From IMG/VR virus record IMGVR_UViG_3300010370_000029, positions 23,474 through 87,473 of that record: a DNA stretch of 64,000 bases. The stretch is one strand, 5' to 3'. Shown here one piece after another: positions 8,357 to 33,719 of the stretch; positions within the stretch are counted from its first letter, which is position 1, and every line of letters starts with the position of its first letter. The DNA comes from a virus. The notes under the pieces are model-generated. The model was not told the origin of the DNA and did no database searches. It saw only the letters and a program-made list of their open reading frames with translations. The position numbers and the translations under genes were made by a program.

Positions 8357-10882
8357 ATGTATCAGGCAATTTACATTGAACGTGGTGAAGGATTTGGCAA
8401 CGATACCGTGCATTTATGGGATGACGAGCTAGGGTATCAGACCATTCCTTATAATAAATTTGATTATGCGTATAAGCCCGACCGCAATGGGCAATTCATC
8501 AGCATGACTGGTGTGCGGTTGGCAAAGGTCAAGCGCTATAAGCGAGATGACCCATCATTATTTGAGAGCGACCTTCCCCAAGAGACTCGCGTGCTCACCG
8601 ATTTATATCTGAACGAGGATAACGTTTCCCAAGGGCATAAGACGATGTTTTTCGACATCGAAGTGTCTATGGAAAATGGCGTGCCAAATATTGAGAATCC
8701 GAACAATGAAATTACGTCCATTGCGGTATATGACTCGGTGACGCAGGAATATACGGTATTGGTACTGGACAAGGCGGGAGTTCAACCAAGTCGTGAGTAT
8801 GATAATGTTAAGGTCGTAATGTATACATCGGAATTGGACTTGCTCTATGGATTTTTGGACCTGTATGAGCAGATTGGACCGACGATTGTTACTGGATGGA
8901 ATAGTGACTTTTTCGACATCCCATATCTCTATCATCGTATCAAGCAGCAGTGTGGACCAAATACCGCCGGTCGGTTGAGTCCGATTGGAAAGATTAAGTA
9001 TTCCAAGTTCCGTAGTCGGTACCAGATTGCGGGCGTATCTTCTCTAGACTATTTGACATTATATAAGAAGTTCACCTACACTCAACAGCCGAATTATCGT
9101 TTAGATACGATTGGTCGGTTGGAGGTGGGCATGGGAAAGGTCGAATATCAAGGGTCGCTCGATGAATTGTTCCGTAATGATTTGGAGAAGTTCATTGAGT
9201 ACAATCTTCAAGACGTACGCATCATCGTAGAGATGGACAAGAAGCTCAAGCTGATTGAGCTCGTTCGTGGTATTTGTCATTTGGGTCACGTTTCATATGA
9301 AGATTATTGGTTTAGTTCGAAGTTCTTGGAAGGCACGATTGTAACCTATCTTCATAGAAAGGGCATCATTGTAACAAACCGACCCGCTGGTGGTCGTGAG
9401 ATGATGGATAACAAGGTAGAAAATGATGAAGAAGGATTCGCTGGTGCGTTTGTGAAGGAACCGAATCCCGGTCTATATGAATGGGTCTATTCCCTCGACT
9501 TACAATCGCTGTATCCATCTATCATTATGAGTCTCAATATCAGCCCCGAAACCAAGATTGGATTTGTGACCAATTGGAATGTGGACAAGCATGCGGCTGG
9601 TGATATGCAGGAATATTTGATTCGTGGTACAACTGATGAGGAAGTGGTACGGTTGAGCCGTGAAGCGTTCTTGAAATATATGAAGATGGAAAGTCTGATG
9701 ATTAGTTCCAACGGCGTTCTATATAATGGAGGTGCGGTGGGGATTATTCCCGAAGTACTCGACAAGTGGTTCGCAGAACGCGTGGAATATAAGAATCTGA
9801 TGAAGAAATATAAGAATGAGGGTAATACCGAATTGGCTGAGTTCTACGACCGCCGACAGCACATTCAAAAGATTTTCTTGAATTCATTGTATGGTGTTCT
9901 TGGGCTGCCCATCTTCCGTTTCTTTGATATTGACAATGCACTTGCCGTCACCGCGTCTGGTCAAGATGTGATTAAGAAGTCTGCGGCGTTTGCCAATGAC
10001 TTGTATTGTTCAAAGCTGGAAGAGCAGAAAGATTATTGTACGTATATCGATACAGATTCGTTGTACTTCTCAGCAACTCCATTAATGCCAGAAACAGCAT
10101 CACAGAAAGAATTTACTATCAAGTTGGCTCGTGCGATGGAGAAGAAGCTGAACGAGTATTATAACGAAATGGCTGAACAGCTGTTCTTCTGTAAGAATCA
10201 TCGGTTGTATATCAAGGGTGAATCCGTTGCTCAGACCGCTATCTGGATTGCGAAGAAGCGGTATGCGATGAACGTGGTTTATGATTTGGAATCCAATCTT
10301 GAAGTGGCAAACAAGATGAAGGTCAAGGGATTGGATGTGGTTCGTTCATCGTTCCCGCCGGCGTTCCGTGACTTTATGAATAAGATGATGAAGGACATCT
10401 TGAATAAGGCAACGAAGGAAGAGATTGACCAAAAGGTACTGACGTTCCGTGATTCGATGGATAGTATGTCGTATCTGGAAGTCGCCAGAAACACGGCGGT
10501 CAAGAATATCTCTGAATATGATTTACGGACGGGGAAGCTAAACGATTTCCGTAAGGGAACTCCCGCCCACGTAAAGGCAGCAATCACCTATAATTCTTTG
10601 TTGAAGCATTTCAAGATTCAAAATAAATATGAAGCTATTTCGGATGGGGAAAAAGTGAAATGGTTATATCTGAAACAGAATCCGTGGAATCTCGAAGCGG
10701 TCGCTGTCAAGGGATATAATGACCCTCAGGAAATCGTTGAGATAGTAAATACTTATATTGATTATAATGCATTATTTGAGAACGAATTGCAGAAGAAATT
10801 AGAAGATTTTTATTCGGCATTGAAATGGGGTAATATACCCACCGAAGTTAATCAGAATGCTCAGGAATGGTTTAGTTTTTGA
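8357..10882 (+). CDS. 43: DNA polymerase, family B (T4 gp43-like)
   Basis: Replicative polymerase with 3'-5' proofreading, 841 aa. Exo I is FFDIEVSMENG at about residues 97-107. Exo II is in the VTGWNSDFFDIPY region and Exo III is EYNLQDVRII. Polymerase motif A is SLDLQSLYPSIIMS at about residue 378. Motif B is QHIQKIFLNSLYGVLG and motif C is YIDTDSLYF at about residue 565. A short C-terminus probably docks on the gp45 clamp. All catalytic Asp residues are intact. It has its own promoter, and the Oar-like receptor gene follows after 65 bp. Confidence 0.95.
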   Translation: MYQAIYIERGEGFGNDTVHLWDDELGYQTIPYNKFDYAYKPDRNGQFISMTGVRLAKVKRYKRDDPSLFESDLPQETRVLTDLYLNEDNVSQGHKTMFFDIEVSMENGVPNIENPNNEITSIAVYDSVTQEYTVLVLDKAGVQPSREYDNVKVVMYTSELDLLYGFLDLYEQIGPTIVTGWNSDFFDIPYLYHRIKQQCGPNTAGRLSPIGKIKYSKFRSRYQIAGVSSLDYLTLYKKFTYTQQPNYRLDTIGRLEVGMGKVEYQGSLDELFRNDLEKFIEYNLQDVRIIVEMDKKLKLIELVRGICHLGHVSYEDYWFSSKFLEGTIVTYLHRKGIIVTNRPAGGREMMDNKVENDEEGFAGAFVKEPNPGLYEWVYSLDLQSLYPSIIMSLNISPETKIGFVTNWNVDKHAAGDMQEYLIRGTTDEEVVRLSREAFLKYMKMESLMISSNGVLYNGGAVGIIPEVLDKWFAERVEYKNLMKKYKNEGNTELAEFYDRRQHIQKIFLNSLYGVLGLPIFRFFDIDNALAVTASGQDVIKKSAAFANDLYCSKLEEQKDYCTYIDTDSLYFSATPLMPETASQKEFTIKLARAMEKKLNEYYNEMAEQLFFCKNHRLYIKGESVAQTAIWIAKKRYAMNVVYDLESNLEVANKMKVKGLDVVRSSFPPAFRDFMNKMMKDILNKATKEEIDQKVLTFRDSMDSMSYLEVARNTAVKNISEYDLRTGKLNDFRKGTPAHVKAAITYNSLLKHFKIQNKYEAISDGEKVKWLYLKQNPWNLEAVAVKGYNDPQEIVEIVNTYIDYNALFENELQKKLEDFYSALKWGNIPTEVNQNAQEWFSF

Positions 10883-10913
10883 TATTTATTTATTCACCCC
10901 TAGCGTCGAGCCA

Positions 10914-10940
10914 CCCACAGACGGGGCTCGGTTATAGAGA
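10914..10940 (+). other. Hairpin between the polymerase and receptor genes
   Basis: CGAGCC near the start of this interval can pair with GGCTCG about 12 nt downstream, giving a 6-bp stem in the leader of the TonB-dependent receptor gene. No T-run follows, so it is not a typical terminator. It may affect translation of the receptor. Confidence 0.3.
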
Positions 10941-10947
10941 CTCTCTT

Positions 10948-13900
10948 ATGAGAAAAATGTTGGAAATTCTTTTAGCAACTGCGATGTTGTCTACCTCCGC
11001 TTATGCGCAAATCACCAGCGGAATCCTTCGTGGTACGGTTAAAGATTTTACAGGTAGTACAATTGAAAATGCAAATGTTACTGTGGTCTTTGTTCCAACC
11101 AATCAACGAATTGTTACGAAAACGACAACAGAAGGTCGGTTCACATTATCCAACTTAAAACCAGGTGGTCCATATACTGTATCGGTGACCGCATTGGGGT
11201 TCCGTCCAAAGTTTACGGATAATCTCACAGTTCGTTTGGGTGAAGCAACAAGCACAGATATTGAAATGGAAAAAATTGTTGTAGTATTAAATCAAGTATC
11301 GGTTATTGCAGACGTAGCAGCACAGGCACGTAAAGATGGTGCGGTGGCACAACTCAATCAAGAGAAGTTGCAAGTGCTTCCCACCCTATCTCGTAGTCTC
11401 CAAGATATGACCCGTATGACCCCACAAGGTAACGGGGTTTCTTTTGCGGGTTCCAACTATCGGTATAACAACTTGACGATTGATGGAGCAGCATCGAATG
11501 ATGCGTTCGGATTCAGTCAATCATCAGGTCAATCCACCGCATCAGTTCCAACGGGAACACCTGGTTCTCTTTCACGTTCACAACCTATTTCGCTTGACGC
11601 CATCGAACAAGTATCTGTGGTCATCGCACCCTATGATGTGAAGATTGGTAATTTCACAGGTGGTAGCGTGAATGCAGTTACTCGTTCAGGTACCAACACC
11701 ACCGAAGGTTCCATCTACTCATTCGGTCGTGTTCCACAATTTATCGGTGATGGTATCTCTGGTAAAATGCCAACCACCTTTAATGAATATCAAGCAGGTG
11801 GTCGTATCGGTGGTCCTATTATCAAGGACAAGTTGTTCTACTTTTTGAATTTTGAAATTGCACGTAGAGCAGACCCTATCCTATTTGCACCTGGTAATCC
11901 AGGCGTGTTAGCCACGGAAGCAGTTGCACAACAAGTTCGTGATAGTCTGGTGTCATTCGCAGCACGCTCTGGTGTTCCAAACTTTGATGCAGGAACCTTT
12001 GGGGCATATGATATTGAAGCAAATAGTGAAAAGTATTTCGGTCGTGTGGATTGGAATATTGGGAACTCTATCTTGACGGTTCGTAGTAATCTTGTCAATG
12101 CAGTCGCAGGAAACTTGGAACGTGGACAAGCGCTCACCAAGTTAGCCTCACAAGACTTCGACCATTTCAGTAGAGCTACCAACACCGTTGCTGAATTGAA
12201 ATCACAACTTGGAACAGGAGTATCTAATAGTTTGTTGTTAGGATATTCACTTGTTCGTGACCACAGAAATCCATATGGTAATGTGTTCGCACCACAAATT
12301 GAAATCCAAGATATTCAGTTTGGTCAAATCAATGCAGGTAGTGACCGTGAAGGGGTGGTGTATGGCACCAAAGTTCGCACCTATGAAGTGACTAACAATC
12401 TCACATGGTCTGTGGGGAAGCATACCCTTACCGCTGGTACTCACAATGAGTTCTACAATATTCAATACACCTTCGTGAATGGATACGCCGGTCGTTGGCA
12501 ATACGCAAATCTCGCATCGTTCTTCGCAAATCGTCCTAATCGTATCAGAGCAACATTTGATTTGACGGATAATAGTTTAGATTATGTATTGAACAACCCA
12601 GGAGCAAACTTTAATATCACCGTTCCAAGTGTGTATATCCAAGACGAAGTATCTGTCACCGACAACTTCAAGGTGACCGCAGGGGTTCGTGCAGACTGGA
12701 ATATGATGGATACACCAGTTCAAGCAGATGCGTTTACGAACATCACTCTCACGAACGGCACCAAACCATATAGTACCATCACCAACGATTATAGTAGAAG
12801 TTTGTTGATTGGTCCTCGTTTCGGATTCAACTGGCAAACAGACAGAGTGACTTATCGTGGTGGGGTTGGATATTTTCAAGGAAGAATGCCGTTCGCATGG
12901 TATGCCTATCCATTCATCCACAACGGATTGATTGTAGGAAACATTGATGCAAGACCAACCAATGTGGTTCCGTTGATTGTGGACCCACTTCGTCAAAGTT
13001 CATTGAGTAGCACCACGACATATGAAATGAATGTGATCGGGAACAAGTATGTTCAACCACAGATGCGTAGAATGAACTTGGCAACAGACATCAAGTTACC
13101 ATTTGATGCATTACTTGTACTGGATTGGACATTCACCAAGACATTAAACGACATCGTATTCACGAACATCGGATTACCCGCACCCGCAGGTAATCTCGCA
13201 GGTGGTGACCGCAGACCAGTCTACACCTCAACCAGATTAACAACCACTACAACTAATCCATACACATCAGTATTCGCACTCAATAATACTGATAAGGGTT
13301 ACAGATACAACGTCACAGCAAATCTCAGTAAGAAGTGGGACCACCTTGATGTGATGGCAGCATATAGTTATGGGGAAGCAAAGGATTTGGCAAACGGTCA
13401 ACGCAACTCGTTCCAATCACACGTGGAATACAATCAATTGGTGAAGGGTAACCAATATGACCTCACGTGGTCTAACTTTGATATTCGTCATCGTTTCGTG
13501 GTGAATGGTAGTTGGAACTGGAAGAACACCACCGTATCAGCAGTCTATACAGGTTCATCAGGTTCACCATTCTCCTATGTGTATTCTGGTGATTTAAATG
13601 GTGACGGGTCAAGTCATAATGATTTGTTGTATGTTCCACGCAATATTGATGAAATCAAGTTGGTTCCATCTGCTCGTCCTACGGGTCAAGTAGATACCAG
13701 AACAGCACAACAAATCTGGGAAGATTTAGATAGATTCATCAGTAATGACCCATATCTGTCCTCACATCGTGGTGAATACACCAAGAGAAACGGTGCAAGA
13801 ACTCCGTGGAATCACCGAGCAGATGTTCGTATCATCCAATCAGTCAAGAATGTAGATATTACATTTGACATCACTAACTTCGGTAATCTGTTGAACAAGG

Positions 13901-14085
13901 ATTGGGGTAAGTATTATTTCGTTCCAAATCTTAATAATCAAAATGTCTATCCACTCCAATATCGTTCAGGTCGTGGTGTGAATAGCGTTCCAACATTTAG
14001 TTTCGACCCACTAAATACCACTTATCAGACAGATGATTTAATGTCTCGTTGGCAGATGCAAGTGGGGATTCGAGTTAACTTCTAA
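10948..14085 (+). CDS. Oar-like TonB-dependent outer-membrane receptor
   Basis: Predicted outer-membrane beta-barrel, 1045 aa. I chose the ATG at 10948 because it opens a clean signal peptide (MRK, hydrophobic core, AYA cut site); the 23 residues from an in-frame ATG at 10879 are not part of it. The mature N-terminus is a carboxypeptidase-regulatory-like domain (GTVKDFTGSTIENANV, GRFTLSNLKPGG). The plug domain follows (NNLTIDGAASNDAFG, GSVNAVTRSGTN). A long barrel ends in the terminal Phe (VGIRVNF) recognised by the BAM machinery. Features match Oar-type receptors of Gram-negative bacteria. I cannot identify a classical TonB box. The gene is intact, on the same strand as phage replication genes, and phage-like in codon use, so this is not an obvious assembly chimera. 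Role (nutrient uptake, superinfection exclusion, surface remodelling) is unknown. Confidence 0.88.
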   Translation: MRKMLEILLATAMLSTSAYAQITSGILRGTVKDFTGSTIENANVTVVFVPTNQRIVTKTTTEGRFTLSNLKPGGPYTVSVTALGFRPKFTDNLTVRLGEATSTDIEMEKIVVVLNQVSVIADVAAQARKDGAVAQLNQEKLQVLPTLSRSLQDMTRMTPQGNGVSFAGSNYRYNNLTIDGAASNDAFGFSQSSGQSTASVPTGTPGSLSRSQPISLDAIEQVSVVIAPYDVKIGNFTGGSVNAVTRSGTNTTEGSIYSFGRVPQFIGDGISGKMPTTFNEYQAGGRIGGPIIKDKLFYFLNFEIARRADPILFAPGNPGVLATEAVAQQVRDSLVSFAARSGVPNFDAGTFGAYDIEANSEKYFGRVDWNIGNSILTVRSNLVNAVAGNLERGQALTKLASQDFDHFSRATNTVAELKSQLGTGVSNSLLLGYSLVRDHRNPYGNVFAPQIEIQDIQFGQINAGSDREGVVYGTKVRTYEVTNNLTWSVGKHTLTAGTHNEFYNIQYTFVNGYAGRWQYANLASFFANRPNRIRATFDLTDNSLDYVLNNPGANFNITVPSVYIQDEVSVTDNFKVTAGVRADWNMMDTPVQADAFTNITLTNGTKPYSTITNDYSRSLLIGPRFGFNWQTDRVTYRGGVGYFQGRMPFAWYAYPFIHNGLIVGNIDARPTNVVPLIVDPLRQSSLSSTTTYEMNVIGNKYVQPQMRRMNLATDIKLPFDALLVLDWTFTKTLNDIVFTNIGLPAPAGNLAGGDRRPVYTSTRLTTTTTNPYTSVFALNNTDKGYRYNVTANLSKKWDHLDVMAAYSYGEAKDLANGQRNSFQSHVEYNQLVKGNQYDLTWSNFDIRHRFVVNGSWNWKNTTVSAVYTGSSGSPFSYVYSGDLNGDGSSHNDLLYVPRNIDEIKLVPSARPTGQVDTRTAQQIWEDLDRFISNDPYLSSHRGEYTKRNGARTPWNHRADVRIIQSVKNVDITFDITNFGNLLNKDWGKYYFVPNLNNQNVYPLQYRSGRGVNSVPTFSFDPLNTTYQTDDLMSRWQMQVGIRVNF

Positions 14086-14108: not shown

Positions 14109-14153
14109 TTGACAGAACAGGGGGTGTATGATATATTTCATACATCCCCTTTT
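14109..14153 (+). terminator. Rho-independent terminator after the receptor gene, overlapping a promoter-like sequence
   Basis: An 11-bp stem with one G-T pair (14120-14130 with 14139-14149) has an 8-nt loop and TTTT after it. It would end transcription of the receptor gene. The same stretch holds TTGACA (14109-14114), a 17-bp spacer and TATATT (14132-14137, in the loop). A promoter for the downstream small genes and ligase may therefore be superimposed on it. Confidence 0.65.
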
Positions 14154-14290: not shown

Positions 14291-14358
14291 ACTTTGGACT
14301 AAAGATTTTCCTCATCAGTGTTGTGGTCATGTACATTCTTGACAAGGTAATCAAATGA
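14287..14358 (+). CDS. Tiny membrane peptide (23 aa)
   Basis: Starts at the ATGA overlap with the previous small gene and ends in an ATGA overlap with the ligase start. Nearly all of it is one hydrophobic helix (LKIFLISVVVMYIL) with a Lys-rich end. The coupled overlaps are the main support; function unknown. Confidence 0.4.
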   Translation: MNFGLKIFLISVVVMYILDKVIK

Positions 14359-15461
14359 AAATCGTAAAGTCTAGTGATTGGCTTATTTCGGAAAACAAGG
14401 CTGGTGGTGAGAAGTTCTGGCGGTTGCATATCCTCCAAGATAACAAAGAAGGAGGATTTTATACGCAGACGGAATGGTTTCAGATTAGTAAGACAGGCCG
14501 TGAAACCAAACGACAGTTCTCTTCACCCTATTATGCCGAACCCACGAATGTCGGTCGGTCAAACGAGCGTAACTCTGAGCAGCAGGCAGAGTTTGAGTTT
14601 GACGCCGTAATCAAGAAGCAGAAGGACAAGGGATTCCGTGCGAAGGGTGAGCGAAAGAATGTTCGTCCGATGCCGATGCTTGCACATAAGTTTACGGACC
14701 ACAAGAAGAAGGTAAATTTTCCTGCATACATTCAGCCCAAGTTGAATGGTATGCGTATGTTGTTTGACGGAGAGAACGGATGGAGCCGTGGAAATAAGGA
14801 AGTGATTCCCGAAGTCATTCAGCACTTGAAGTTTGACACAGGTGGGTTTATACTTGATGGTGAGTTGATGCTTCCGAACAATCAGCTCCTTCAAGAGAGT
14901 ATGAAGGCAATCAAGAAGTATCGCCCAGAGTTGTCCTCACAACTTCTCTATCACGTTTATGATATCGTAGATGAGGAACTTCCGTATGTGAAGCGTCATC
15001 AGTTGATTCTGGACATTTGTGCGAATGCACCGAAGAATGTCAAGATTGTCAAGACTGTTCGGGCAGATGATGAATCACAGGTATCTCACCTTCATAATCT
15101 CTTTGTCCAAGACGGATACGAGGGAACGATGATTCGTGATGAGGAAATGAAGTATGAGATTGGCAAGCGTTCGTATTCACTACTTAAACTAAAGGACTTT
15201 ACAGATGCAGAGTATCGTATTGTTGATGTTGTTGACGGCGACGGTAGTGATGTCGGCCTCGCCATTTTTGAATTGGAGACTGATTCTGGTGCACGTTTCA
15301 ATTGCCGTCCAGAGGGTTCGCAGGAGAATCGTGCAGACCTATTCAAGAATCGTCGTCAGTTGGTTGGCAAGTATCTGACGGTTAGGTACTTTGAGTTGAG
15401 TAAGGACGGTATTCCGATTTTCCCCGTGGGTGTATCTATTCGTGAGTGGGGTGAATTCTAA
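14355..15461 (+). CDS. ATP-dependent DNA ligase
   Basis: Seals nicks in lagging-strand DNA using ATP. The adenylation motif I is PKLNGMR, with the nucleophilic Lys at about residue 129. Motif III is FILDGELM. EGTMIRDEE and LLKLKDF cover motifs IV-V. An OB-fold C-terminus includes YLTVRYFELSKDGIPIFP. The N-terminal approximately 110 residues carry a WGR-like or DNA-binding extension (FWRLHIL, GGFYTQTEW). At 368 aa it is shorter than T4 gp30 (487). Its stop overlaps the next start (TAATG). Confidence 0.88.
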   Translation: MKIVKSSDWLISENKAGGEKFWRLHILQDNKEGGFYTQTEWFQISKTGRETKRQFSSPYYAEPTNVGRSNERNSEQQAEFEFDAVIKKQKDKGFRAKGERKNVRPMPMLAHKFTDHKKKVNFPAYIQPKLNGMRMLFDGENGWSRGNKEVIPEVIQHLKFDTGGFILDGELMLPNNQLLQESMKAIKKYRPELSSQLLYHVYDIVDEELPYVKRHQLILDICANAPKNVKIVKTVRADDESQVSHLHNLFVQDGYEGTMIRDEEMKYEIGKRSYSLLKLKDFTDAEYRIVDVVDGDGSDVGLAIFELETDSGARFNCRPEGSQENRADLFKNRRQLVGKYLTVRYFELSKDGIPIFPVGVSIREWGEF

Positions 15462-21992: not shown

Positions 21993-23660
21993 ATGGCTGG
22001 GCTGACCCTCGTATCATCAGGAGCAAACGTCAAGTCGTGGACGTTTGATAAAATTTCTAAGGAGTATAGTACTACTCTCGTAGACACGCCAAAGTATCAG
22101 CGACCGGATGTGTTCGGCTTTGTACGGAACGGCAGCGGTAGTAATTGGCAGCGTAATCTCATCCGTTCTATTTTGATGGGCAATCCCATCCCTCAGCTCC
22201 ACTTTCGCTACGTATTCTCAAAGGGGCCAAATGGTCTAGAGTGGAAGTATGAGATTGTGGACGGAGGACATCGCACACGTACTGTATATTACTTTCTAAA
22301 CAATTGCATTAAAACTCCAATTGACTGTACGCTTACCGATGTTGACGGGAACCAGTACAACATTGGTGCTATGCATCTTTCACAGATTATACAGAAGTAT
22401 CCTGTGCTAGAGGATTACATCTATAATCTTTCTCTTAGCGTTGTAGAGTATGAAAATCTCACCGATGATGATGCAGAAACACTTTTTCTTACTCTTAATG
22501 ATTTGAACAAGATGTCTCCCGCTGACAAGCGGAACGCTATTAATAATATTATTGCGGATACGAACCGTAATCTTGGTGCGGTTGACTCCCCTAACGCTTT
22601 TTCGATGTTCACCAGCCGTTCATTCATTAAGAACGATTGGAAGGCTGACTACACCAGCTTGGATGCAGTCAGCCGAGAGTCGGATGAAATTGTATCGTGG
22701 GCGATGTACTATCTATACAGCGGTGGTATATTTGCAAAAGACTCCAGCGGAAAGCCGCGGTTCGCGGGTATGGACGCCCAATCAGTTCTCGACAAGATGT
22801 ATCGTGACGAGTATCTTATGAGGGAGTTGGCGGTACCGGGGTCTAAGATGGAAAAGAATCTGCGGTCACTACTGTCAATTGTTAATAATATTGTCGTTAA
22901 GAATCCGCGTCTTGATATTTTTAAAAAGGGCGGAAAGTGGTTCGCTGGTCCTCTAAAGAAGCTTATTATGCTAGTCGCTGAGATGCACAATGTAAACGGT
23001 ACTTTTAACTTTAGTAAAGTTAAAATTAATACCGACGACTTCTTTACCTCTTTCAATCGAGCGACCAGCGAACTGAAGAACGACAAGAACGTAAAGCCAC
23101 ACCTGCCATACCAGTCGTATATGCTGGTAAACAACAAGGTTCACGTAAATAGCGTTCAGCCGGATAATGTTGGTGATACAATATATCCGTTCCATAAAGT
23201 GTTTACGGGAGGCGCTCGACTTGACGATATGCTGTACATCTATTATCATTACGTCACCAAGGGTTATATGAATTTTGGAGTTACGAAATTGGATAAGCGT
23301 CGAGACTTTAATAAGGATATCGTAGATACTCTACTCACGGAACAGAAGAATTGCTGCCGGTTTTGCTCAAAGTTACTCACGGATGGTAATTACGCGGTAG
23401 ACCACATTGCTCCGCATTCTTTTGGTGGACCTACAATTCTGGAAAACAGCCAGATTCTCTGTTCTTCTTGTAACGGTCAGAAGTCGAATGGCATGACACT
23501 CCAAGATGTGGTACATCTCTGTGAGAGAATGAACGTAGACGTTCAACTTAAGGAAGTTGTAGTTGGACTGGCTCACGCAGTTATTACCTCTGGCGCAACT
23601 GACCGACTCTCGGAAGGTGATATCCGTACAGTAATTAAGCTGGTATTTGGCAAACAATAA
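21993..23660 (+). CDS. DUF262 (ParB/GmrS-like) fused to an HNH endonuclease
   Basis: 555 aa. The N-terminal third has the DUF262 signature EIVDGGHRTRTVYYF, a ParB/sulfiredoxin-like NTP-handling fold also found in GmrS and SspE. The middle is a helical region. The C-terminus is a classical HNH finger: CCRFCSKLL, NYAVDHIAPHSFGG, NSQILCSSCNGQKS. Such fusions cut modified or unmodified DNA in bacterial defence. Here, inside a phage replication block with its own promoter, it may attack host or competitor DNA while phage DNA is protected. Not a homing-type arrangement, because no split gene is seen. Confidence 0.8.
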   Translation: MAGLTLVSSGANVKSWTFDKISKEYSTTLVDTPKYQRPDVFGFVRNGSGSNWQRNLIRSILMGNPIPQLHFRYVFSKGPNGLEWKYEIVDGGHRTRTVYYFLNNCIKTPIDCTLTDVDGNQYNIGAMHLSQIIQKYPVLEDYIYNLSLSVVEYENLTDDDAETLFLTLNDLNKMSPADKRNAINNIIADTNRNLGAVDSPNAFSMFTSRSFIKNDWKADYTSLDAVSRESDEIVSWAMYYLYSGGIFAKDSSGKPRFAGMDAQSVLDKMYRDEYLMRELAVPGSKMEKNLRSLLSIVNNIVVKNPRLDIFKKGGKWFAGPLKKLIMLVAEMHNVNGTFNFSKVKINTDDFFTSFNRATSELKNDKNVKPHLPYQSYMLVNNKVHVNSVQPDNVGDTIYPFHKVFTGGARLDDMLYIYYHYVTKGYMNFGVTKLDKRRDFNKDIVDTLLTEQKNCCRFCSKLLTDGNYAVDHIAPHSFGGPTILENSQILCSSCNGQKSNGMTLQDVVHLCERMNVDVQLKEVVVGLAHAVITSGATDRLSEGDIRTVIKLVFGKQ

Positions 23661-30958: not shown

Positions 30959-32362
30959 ATGAAATATATGAGACAAGGTTATTTACCAAAAAATGAACGC
31001 AAGAAAATCCTCCTACTCTCGGATGACCTACGGGTTACATCTGGCGTAGGAGTAATGTCAAGAGAAATAGTCGAAGGTACTTGCCATCGGTATAATTGGA
31101 TACAAGTTGGTGCAGGCGTAAACCATCCCGATGCCGGCAAAATCCTAGACCTTTCAGAAGCACTAAAGAGTGAAGTGGGAGTAGATGACCCCTATGTTCG
31201 CATTTATCCATATAACGGATATGGTGATAGTCGGTTGATTCGCACATTAATTGAAACAGAAAAGCCAGATGCTATTCTGCACTTCACCGACCCCCGCTAT
31301 TGGATTTGGCTCTACCAGATGGAACACGAACTCCGTCAAAAGATGCCGCTGATGTATTACAACATTTGGGACGACCTTCCATATCCTATGTACAATCAAG
31401 GGTATTATATGTCGTGCGATTCACTATTCTCAATTAGTAAGCAGACATATAATATTAACAAGCAAGTACTCGGACCACGGAACCCGCGGCATCTTGCTTA
31501 TATCCCACACGGCATTAACACCAAGCGGTATCACTCACTTCCAGTTGATGACGCTGGTATGTTGGAAACTCGTAAGAAGTTATTTGGTGAAGCCGAAGTC
31601 GATTATGTTATCTTCTATAATAGTCGGAACATTCGCCGGAAGCAGACATCGGATATCATCTACGCCTTCAAGGTATTTATGTCGAAGCTCACACCAGAGC
31701 AACGTGAAAAAGTACGCTTAGTTCTCCATACACAGCCCGTGGATGACAACGGGACGGATTTACCAGCGGTCATTCGGGATGTGACGCCTGAAGTGCAGAA
31801 GTATATCATATTCTCTGCTGATAGAGTGGAAGCAGGATTCCTCAACCATCTGTATAATATCGCTGACGTATCTATCAATATGTCCAGTAACGAAGGATTC
31901 GGATTGGGTACGTGTGAAAGTATTGTGGCAGGTACTCCTATCATTGTCAACGTGACCGGTGGATTACAAGACCAATGTGGATTTATGGACGAGGAAGGAA
32001 ACTACCTTGACCCAGATAAGCATTTCACCTACGAATGGGGTAGCAATCACGATGGTCGGTACAAGAAGCACGGGGAATGGGCGTTCCCAATGTTCCCATC
32101 GAATCGCTCATTACAAGGGTCACCGTTGACTCCATATATCTTCGACGACCGTGCCTCGTTCGAAGACGCAGCAGACCGTATGATGGAAGTCTATAATATG
32201 TCACGTGAAGAACGTAAGCGCCGTGGTGAGCTCGGCCGTCAGTACGCTTTGGGAGCTGGTCAATTTACCGCAGAACGTATGTGTGAATTGTTTATAGAAA
32301 ATATTGATAAGGGATTCCAAGAATGGGTTCCAAGAAGTAAGTTTGAATTAGTTAAGGCATAA
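30959..32362 (+). CDS. GT-B glycosyltransferase (GT4-like)
   Basis: 467 aa. N-terminal half: ILLLSDDLRVTSGVGVMSREIV, a glycine-rich acceptor-side loop. C-terminal half: IFYNSRNIRRKQ, YNIADVSINMSSNEGFGLGTCESIVAGTPIIVNVTGG, the GT4 nucleotide-sugar signature with the ExFG-like EGFGLG. Begins the sugar island. The next gene is a similar enzyme, suggesting stepwise glycan synthesis. Substrate unknown. Confidence 0.82.
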   Translation: MKYMRQGYLPKNERKKILLLSDDLRVTSGVGVMSREIVEGTCHRYNWIQVGAGVNHPDAGKILDLSEALKSEVGVDDPYVRIYPYNGYGDSRLIRTLIETEKPDAILHFTDPRYWIWLYQMEHELRQKMPLMYYNIWDDLPYPMYNQGYYMSCDSLFSISKQTYNINKQVLGPRNPRHLAYIPHGINTKRYHSLPVDDAGMLETRKKLFGEAEVDYVIFYNSRNIRRKQTSDIIYAFKVFMSKLTPEQREKVRLVLHTQPVDDNGTDLPAVIRDVTPEVQKYIIFSADRVEAGFLNHLYNIADVSINMSSNEGFGLGTCESIVAGTPIIVNVTGGLQDQCGFMDEEGNYLDPDKHFTYEWGSNHDGRYKKHGEWAFPMFPSNRSLQGSPLTPYIFDDRASFEDAADRMMEVYNMSREERKRRGELGRQYALGAGQFTAERMCELFIENIDKGFQEWVPRSKFELVKA

Positions 32363-32387
32363 TAATTTTTACGATAGAGAGTATATT

Positions 32388-33719
32388 ATGAATACCGAAG
32401 TTAAACCGTTATGTATAGTCCGTGCTCCATGCGCCACCCGTTCTGGTTACGGAGATATGAGTCGTGACATCATCCGACATCTTATTGAATATGATAAGTA
32501 TGATGTTAAGGTTATCTCTGTGAATTGGGGTGAGACTCCAATGAACGCACTGAATCCAGATAATCCAAAGGATAAGATGATTATTGACCGTATCCTTACT
32601 CAAAATCTTATTCAAAAGCCAGACTTGTTTGTTACGATTACCATTCCTACAGAATTTGAAGCGTTAGGTAAATATAATATCGGTATCACGGCTGGTATCG
32701 AAACCACTGCCGCCTCTGCTCAATGGGTTGATGCTTGTAACCGAATGGATGCCGTGTTTACTATATCTGAGCATTCTAAGAATGTACTCCTTACTTCAAA
32801 GTATATGAGAACGGGCCCAAATGGAGAAAAGTTGGGTACACTTGAAGTAACCAAGCCAATCGAAGTTTTACATAATTGTATAGACCAATCAATTATGAAG
32901 AAGTTGGAATACGAAGCTGATATTCTTCCTTCGATTAAAACCGTGATGGAAACCATACCAGAAAAGTTCTGTTATCTTTTCGTTGGTCATTGGCTCCGTG
33001 GGGACTTTGGAGAAGATAGAAAGAATGTATCATTCTTGGTACGGGTATTCCTTGAAACATTTAAGCAAACCAAGGTAGCACCCCCGGCTCTTATTCTAAA
33101 GACCAGTGGTGGTGGGTTCTCCATTCTTGATAAGCGAGAAATGTTGAATAAGATAGACACTATCCGTAAGCAAGTAGTATTAGAAGAAGGTCAACCTATG
33201 CCAAATATTTATTTATTGCATGGTGAATTGACCGATGATGAAATGAATTCGTTGTATAATCACCCGAAGGTAAAGGCACACGTTAGTTTGACGAAGGGCG
33301 AAGGGTTTGGTCGTCCATTACTTGAAGCATCTATTAGTGGTAAGCCAGTTATCGCTTCGGGCTGGAGTGGTCATATGGACTTTTTAAACCCAGAAGATGC
33401 TGTACTGGTCGGCGGTGAACTTAAGCCTATCCACGAAAGTTCAGTATGGGATAATGTCTTGATTAAGGAATCGTCTTGGTTCGCTCCAGACTTACAACAG
33501 TCTGCTAATGCACTCGCTGCAGTCTTTATGGAATATGATGCGTTCCATAAGAGAGCAAAGAAGTTGGGGAAGGAAAACTTTAAGAAGTTCTCCTACAAGG
33601 CAATTCAAAAGCGTACGTGGGAACTCCTCGACAAGTACGTACCAGAATTCCCTAAGCAAGTTCAATTGGTTTTACCGAAGTTAAAAAAGATTGAATTACC
33701 CAAAAAGCAAGGTGAATAA
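32388..33719 (+). CDS. GT-B glycosyltransferase (GT4-like)
   Basis: 443 aa, paralogue-like to the preceding gene: RAPCATRSGYGDMSRDII at the start, KGEGFGRPLLEASISGKPVIASGWSGH as the donor-binding signature. Related to phage and bacterial mannosyl/glucosyl transferases of GT4. The stop overlaps the next start (TAATG). Confidence 0.82.
   Translation: MNTEVKPLCIVRAPCATRSGYGDMSRDIIRHLIEYDKYDVKVISVNWGETPMNALNPDNPKDKMIIDRILTQNLIQKPDLFVTITIPTEFEALGKYNIGITAGIETTAASAQWVDACNRMDAVFTISEHSKNVLLTSKYMRTGPNGEKLGTLEVTKPIEVLHNCIDQSIMKKLEYEADILPSIKTVMETIPEKFCYLFVGHWLRGDFGEDRKNVSFLVRVFLETFKQTKVAPPALILKTSGGGFSILDKREMLNKIDTIRKQVVLEEGQPMPNIYLLHGELTDDEMNSLYNHPKVKAHVSLTKGEGFGRPLLEASISGKPVIASGWSGHMDFLNPEDAVLVGGELKPIHESSVWDNVLIKESSWFAPDLQQSANALAAVFMEYDAFHKRAKKLGKENFKKFSYKAIQKRTWELLDKYVPEFPKQVQLVLPKLKKIELPKKQGE

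Follow-up and report, generated by a model that had tools for sequence, protein, structure and literature searches.

An Oar-like TonB-dependent receptor encoded by phages and its possible role as an exchangeable phosphorus transporter

An Oar-like TonB-dependent receptor (TBDR) gene lies at 10948-14085 (plus strand) of the DNA analyzed here, a 64,000-nucleotide window that belongs to an IMG/VR virus record of 87,473 bp in which the receptor has one match. We have high confidence that this receptor is phage-encoded, intact, widespread and under selection, and phages encode many other TBDRs. The best overall explanation, which we hold with moderate confidence, is that phages captured a functional transporter that is exchangeable among them and probably imports phosphorus.

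The open reading frame begins with an ATG and encodes 1045 aa without an internal stop. A TTG at 10879, overlapping the upstream polymerase gene, is a possible alternative start, but it is the ATG at 10948 that yields the signal peptide (MRKMLEILLATAMLSTSAYAQ, residues 1-21, 10948-11010), with a cleavage site placed by eye and a low-confidence helical N terminus in the structural model. There follow, all on the plus strand, a carboxypeptidase-regulatory-like domain at residues 27-108 (11026-11271; CarboxypepD_reg, PF13620, E = 8.9e-18), a modeled plug domain at residues 132-252 (11341-11703) that is the region most conserved across phage clades, and a beta-barrel (11704-14082) whose Pfam match, OMP_b-brl_4 (PF25183, E = 1e-39), covers residues 357-967. 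Both Pfam matches exceed the gathering score and stand in the PF13620-PF25183 order of Oar-like proteins. The intervening stretch LNQVSVIAD (residues 114-122, 11287-11313) aligns with an LxEVVV stretch of related proteins and may be the TonB box used in energy coupling.

The AlphaFold2 model (pLDDT 83, pTM 0.80) comprises a signal helix, a small beta domain, a plug and a barrel with roughly 22 strands whose last residue is the aromatic Phe1045; the strand count is approximate, since DSSP gives 23 candidate strands. Foldseek ranks TonB-dependent transporters (TBDTs) top among PDB structures, with FusA (4e-31) followed by YddB, PirA, PfeA and FepA, and the model has the plug-in-barrel architecture of these proteins. 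The original prediction of an intact Oar-like receptor with a signal peptide, regulatory-like domain, plug, long barrel and terminal Phe is thus borne out by the protein and its predicted structure. Features of the SusC/RagA type were not found, as the window protein has no TIGR04056 match and is flanked by polymerase and ligase genes with no SusD. The further claim that the gene matches the codon style of the phage stands for codon usage, which is mid-range (rank 10 among 19 long phage genes), but not for third-position GC skew, whose sign is opposite to the phage average. This skew is a residual trace of a separate history of the receptor gene.

The gene does lie between phage DNA polymerase and ligase genes, as had been described. 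A family-B DNA polymerase gene (polB; 8357-10882, plus strand, PHROG 262, E = 1.5e-184, Pfam DNA_pol_B) forms the upstream border of the slot and an ATP-dependent DNA ligase gene (14355-15461, plus strand, PHROG 114, E = 2.1e-67) the downstream border. The window also encodes gp32, RecA, a DnaB-type helicase and RNR. When the same gene was sought in related phage genomes, it was found in eight additional IMG/VR contigs (87-98% protein identity), and the same junctions recur in independent metagenomes: the polB-TBDR junction in five other contigs (L003, L004, L005, L006 and L009) and the TBDR-ligase junction in L003 and L004. A further relative with a different receptor, L179, also has polB upstream of the slot and shares the ligase border with L003 and L004. 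A second phage lineage (L002, L007 and L008) holds the window's receptor at a different genomic location, and DNA identity between L002 and the window begins about 50 bp upstream of the ATG and stops at the stop codon. Because this lineage shares the gene with identity limited to the module, the receptor module has moved between phages; the synonymous divergence between the window and L004, with a dS of 0.28 for the TBDR and 1.23 for polB, is consistent with such movement.

Several other features of these genomes were observed. The L002 copy, otherwise 97% identical, has a single nonsense codon at residue 176 (L002:10526-10528), which is either a mutation or a sequencing error. A permuted tmRNA with the tag GTYNTPLALAA, unusual-looking for a phage, lies directly 3' of the TBDR in all three members of this lineage (L002:13129-13449, L007:1148-1468 and L008:376-696). 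The window itself contains a full DruA (Druantia) domain match in the phage genome (19601-20782; PF14236, E = 1.6e-33), a GmrSD_N and HNH protein (21993-23660; PF03235, PF14279) and a tandem pair of glycosyltransferase genes (30959-33719; PHROG 2170), related genes of which occur in several other phages that carry a TBDR.

Phage TBDRs are not the rarity that had been implied. A profile-based scan of viral contigs finds at least 79 viral loci with an Oar-like TBDR, nearly all full-length, and the receptor has at least 950 aa in 75 viral rows among the matches listed. The T4-type portal family occurs in 21 of the 51 records tested, including contigs of 195-321 kb, and its absence from the remaining records is uninformative because they are fragments. 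Among 50,697 GenBank phage records, the only matches come from faecal scaffolds, and one of these clusters with Bacteroides. The sole full-length GenBank match labeled as a phage, MT837825, groups with Bacteroides gallinarum and was rejected as bacterial. A viral structure library gave one clear full-length match, the SusC of an uncultured marine phage (BFVD A0A8D9FQQ5), and a literature search for phage-encoded TonB receptors returned no dedicated paper and passing mentions in two (PMC9723777, PMC6302217).

The surroundings of the phage TBDR differ among loci. A GroEL-like chaperonin gene is located directly 3' of it in L037, L053, L057, L059, L074, L077, L080 and L084. In L018, L020 and L022, the TBDR gene has upstream a 239-aa secreted protein and downstream a secreted protein of about 500 aa with an Ala/Ser/Lys/Glu-rich low-complexity middle and a barrel-like C terminus, neither of which has a Pfam match.

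Phylogeny against bacterial Oar proteins, a comparison suggested with the original prediction, places the phage receptors in five clades nested among cellular Oar-like TBDRs. Supported branches force at least five label changes in both trees (FastTree on 135 rows and an IQ-TREE mixture model on 57 rows), which implies at least five separate captures from hosts, a number that could change given the limited cellular sampling. The window clade is sister to a gene with chromosomal surroundings from one Gemmatimonadota genome (support 100, identity 56-58%). A Bacteroidota source of the window copy was rejected, because the best matches in 396 genomes reach about 42-44% identity versus 58% for Gemmatimonadota. 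The alternative receptor of L179 has 66-73% identity to nine Gemmatimonadota genes and at most 36% to Bacteroidota genes. Since both the sister relationship and the L179 identities point there, the host of the window's phage group is probably a member of the Gemmatimonadota. The receptor gene also has the marks of an auxiliary gene or moron, being nested in cellular clades, found at differing positions and replaced in, or missing from, the slots of relatives.

Other genes can occupy the slot. The proteins neighboring it in L179 are 71-94% identical to those of the window (polB and ligase, 88%), and the slot between polB and ligase holds an unrelated TBDR (Plug, TonB_dep_Rec) together with a GT2 glycosyltransferase and a calcineurin-like phosphoesterase (Metallophos). 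Assignment of this metallophosphoesterase as LpxH is unsupported (score 55 versus a cut-off of 134). A second, unrelated T4-like phage group, with the T4 portal in most of its records, has a conserved slot with six alternative states: a clade C Oar-like TBDR, a clade B Oar-like TBDR (L064), another TBDR type with a 401-aa lipoprotein (L229-L232 and L238), a GT2 and Metallophos pair (L233), a small outer-membrane protein (OMP; L237), or no insert (L234-L236). Pairs of GT2 and phosphoesterase genes recur in L179, L233 and L083, and L041 and L047 have an Oar-like TBDR, a TBDR of the other type and the lipoprotein in adjacent positions. We give about an even chance to the view that the window receptor is one allele of an exchangeable outer-membrane uptake module.

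Noncoding elements flank the receptor gene on both sides. Its 5' leader (10903-10947, plus strand) is predicted by RNAalifold to form a covarying hairpin, GCGTC-stem-ACCCAYAG-stem-GGTTAWAGAGA, with 12 pairs of which 6 show compensatory change. The hairpin precedes the TBDR in the window, in L002-L006 and L009, and the unrelated TBDR of L179, although the L179 leader folded singly adopts a structure different from the consensus. Identity with a known riboswitch was rejected, as the leader matches no Rfam family and no similar motif is present at the host loci examined. Downstream of the gene, a promoter-like TTGACA-N17-TATATT overlaps a terminator- or operator-like 13-bp palindrome (14109-14150, plus strand, fold z = -6.8) such that the -10 sits in the palindrome loop. 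Counterparts with changed arms occur in L003, L004 and L179; the L179 version keeps the site and differs in its palindrome arms. These comparisons suggest an operator or terminator under constraint.

The receptor is under purifying selection. Twelve within-clade pairs, which cover five phage clades and exclude the L002 pair because its in-frame stop shifts the codon alignment, give dN/dS values of 0.05-0.16, close to those of polB and RNR from the phage itself. Within the receptor, variability is lowest in the plug. With loops and strands assigned from predicted secondary structure alone, loop versus strand variability is 0.144 versus 0.182 in clade A and 0.236 versus 0.225 in clade C; one cellular set used for comparison shows greater variability in loops than in strands (0.371 versus 0.294). 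A conserved plug and long extracellular loops that have not diversified are better explained by a working transporter whose ligand stays constant than by a decoy, and transport is quite likely the function of this receptor.

The proposal that phosphorus is the substrate was pieced together post hoc from the neighbors of relatives rather than of the window copy, which is adjoined by replication genes and by no phosphorus gene. The TBDR of L230 has the Pfam domains Plug (PF07715), CarbopepD_reg_2 (PF13715) and OMP_b-brl_3 (PF14905). Fjoh_0545 of Flavobacterium johnsoniae has the same three domains and is followed by the lipoprotein Fjoh_0546 in the phoBR operon, and both are induced 8-10 log2 upon phosphate depletion (PMC8115612). 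By domain set and gene order, not alignment, the L230 TBDR and lipoprotein appear to match Fjoh_0545-0546. Such a pair is found at phage loci L229-L232 and L238, plus L041 and L047, and the Flavobacterium pair Fjoh_3857-3856 (PMC8115612) offers the same likeness. A search of 297 Bacteroidota genomes with the L230 TBDR gave zero matches at E <= 1e-170, a threshold too strict to show absence. Phosphate depletion also strongly induces PlcP, extracellular nucleases and the orphan pf13620 TBDT Fjoh_3841 (PMC8115612), which, judged by its domain description, may be an Oar-like orthologue.

Cellular and phage neighborhoods provide additional links. In Gemmatimonadota, homologues of the L179 TBDR have a HAMP-type sensor kinase on one side and a lipoprotein on the other at 4 of 4 loci, and this lipoprotein is 37-39% identical to the phage lipoprotein. 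PHO4 or PhoU-like genes flank cellular Oar-like relatives at L087, L088, L112, L090 and L170, an adjacency spotted post hoc at about five loci from two or three lineages, and a two-component system is upstream of a Flavobacterium Oar-like gene. A secreted non-specific nuclease (Endonuclease_NS) is immediately 3' of the TBDR in several clade C and D loci. No partner lipoprotein or phosphatase stands beside the window copy; related slots contain a lipoprotein or Metallophos gene. The GT2 and Metallophos pair could carry out PlcP-like lipid remodeling, for which the published glycosyltransferase partners are GT4, GT21 and GT28 rather than GT2 (PMC8231724). Status as a phosphate-starvation (PUS) transporter is suggested by the replacement resembling Fjoh_0545-0546 and by these neighbors, and we regard phosphorus as the main substrate with middling confidence.

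The proposed sequence of events is as follows. A T4-like phage would have acquired the transporter gene from its host group, for the window clade probably Gemmatimonadota, and retained it as an accessory gene that can be exchanged and that encodes a functional TonB-dependent transporter. In the infected cell, the receptor would be made with its signal peptide, the host BAM machinery would presumably insert it into the outer membrane, and host TonB would energize it. The infected cell could then import a scarce nutrient, most likely a phosphorus compound because the DNA synthesis of large phages is phosphorus-hungry and these hosts scavenge phosphorus via TonB-dependent transporters.

The main rival to phosphorus uptake is superinfection exclusion or receptor replacement, in which a foreign TBDR or other envelope change on the host surface displaces or crowds out the receptor of competing phages, or else prevents adsorption to debris and to cells that are infected already. 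The original prediction had offered nutrient competition, exclusion of rival phages and receptor replacement side by side. Phages are known to use TBDRs as receptors, alleles are swapped among phages (as in the dS values for the window and L004), and a slot that also houses a small OMP and the GT2 and Metallophos pair fits exchange of envelope genes. However, the extracellular loops are undiversified, conservation is highest in the plug even though a decoy requires no working plug, and one slot allele comes with a surface lipoprotein as its partner, as is the case in transport pairs. The conserved plug and loops, the replacement by a type of TBDR with lipoprotein that is known from a phosphate-starvation regulon, and the phosphoesterase or nuclease neighbors of related copies favor phosphorus uptake over exclusion, which we consider unlikely but a serious contender.

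Import through the same mechanism of a nutrient unrelated to phosphorus, such as a sugar, peptide, vitamin or iron complex, ranks next and is also rather unlikely. TBDRs with this fold take up many ligands, ferredoxin and siderophore receptors and YddB/PqqU come closest in fold among solved structures, and carbohydrate uptake has been proposed for the putative phage SusC of Mar_Mega_1 (PMC9723777). Nevertheless, no SusD partner, siderophore gene or cobalamin gene is beside the phage copies examined, and phosphorus-related domain sets recur near them. A role in the envelope or lysis, in which the gene would belong to a lysis cassette and its large barrel would disturb the outer membrane at a late stage of infection, is very improbable. 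By inspection, genes for a putative endolysin, holin-like products and secreted proteins lie close to the clade B TBDR (L018, L020 and L022), but in other clades the TBDR has replication genes around it, GroEL next to it or structural genes nearby, and the conservation of plug and loops is unexpected for such a role. Least probable of all is an assembly chimera, host contamination or passive cargo, which the unusual GC skew, the many contigs that terminate within or shortly past the receptor gene and the nonsense codon in L002 might suggest, but which we rejected because identical junctions recur across independent metagenomes with phage hallmark genes, and against which also stand the second phage lineage, the T4 portal within the same records and the strong purifying selection.

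Phosphorus uptake remains the preferred reading, and the window receptor can be set beside known systems accordingly. It shares domains (PF13620 and PF25183), length and fold with the cellular Oar-like TBDRs of Bacteroidota and Gemmatimonadota, but its type occurs in phage genomes, forms separate clades and moves between phage loci. It differs from the Flavobacterium phosphate-starvation TBDT, which the alternative occupant resembles, in being Oar-like. The putative SusC proteins of megaphages Mar_Mega_1 and LR745206 (PMC9723777) are likewise TonB-dependent receptors in phage genomes, but they are of SusC type and are single reports. LR745206, which is within the searched collection, has no sequence match to the Oar-like family.

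Cyanophages carry the phosphate-uptake auxiliary metabolic genes pstS and phoA. The proposed logic here is similar, with more phosphorus for phage DNA synthesis, but the receptor would act at the outer membrane as a TonB-dependent transporter and in Bacteroidota or Gemmatimonadota hosts. We tentatively suggest that T4-like phages of these hosts may carry an exchangeable phosphorus-scavenging island of phosphate-starvation TBDTs, a PlcP-like phosphoesterase with a glycosyltransferase, and secreted nucleases. If this is true, its TBDTs would be either Oar-like or Fjoh_0545-like with a lipoprotein, its phosphoesterase and glycosyltransferase would release phosphorus from host phospholipids, and the island would be an outer-membrane counterpart to the cyanophage phosphate genes.

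TonB-dependent receptors are usually regarded as phage entry doors. Many large phages encode such receptors themselves, with repeated capture, purifying selection and exchange at fixed positions. If these receptors are phosphorus importers, then this is how phages of Bacteroidota and Gemmatimonadota deal with the phosphorus supply problem for which cyanophages have pstS and phoA. Should the receptors instead serve exclusion, they would be a new class of surface-remodeling genes. On either reading, a defined gene family and slot make the question directly testable.
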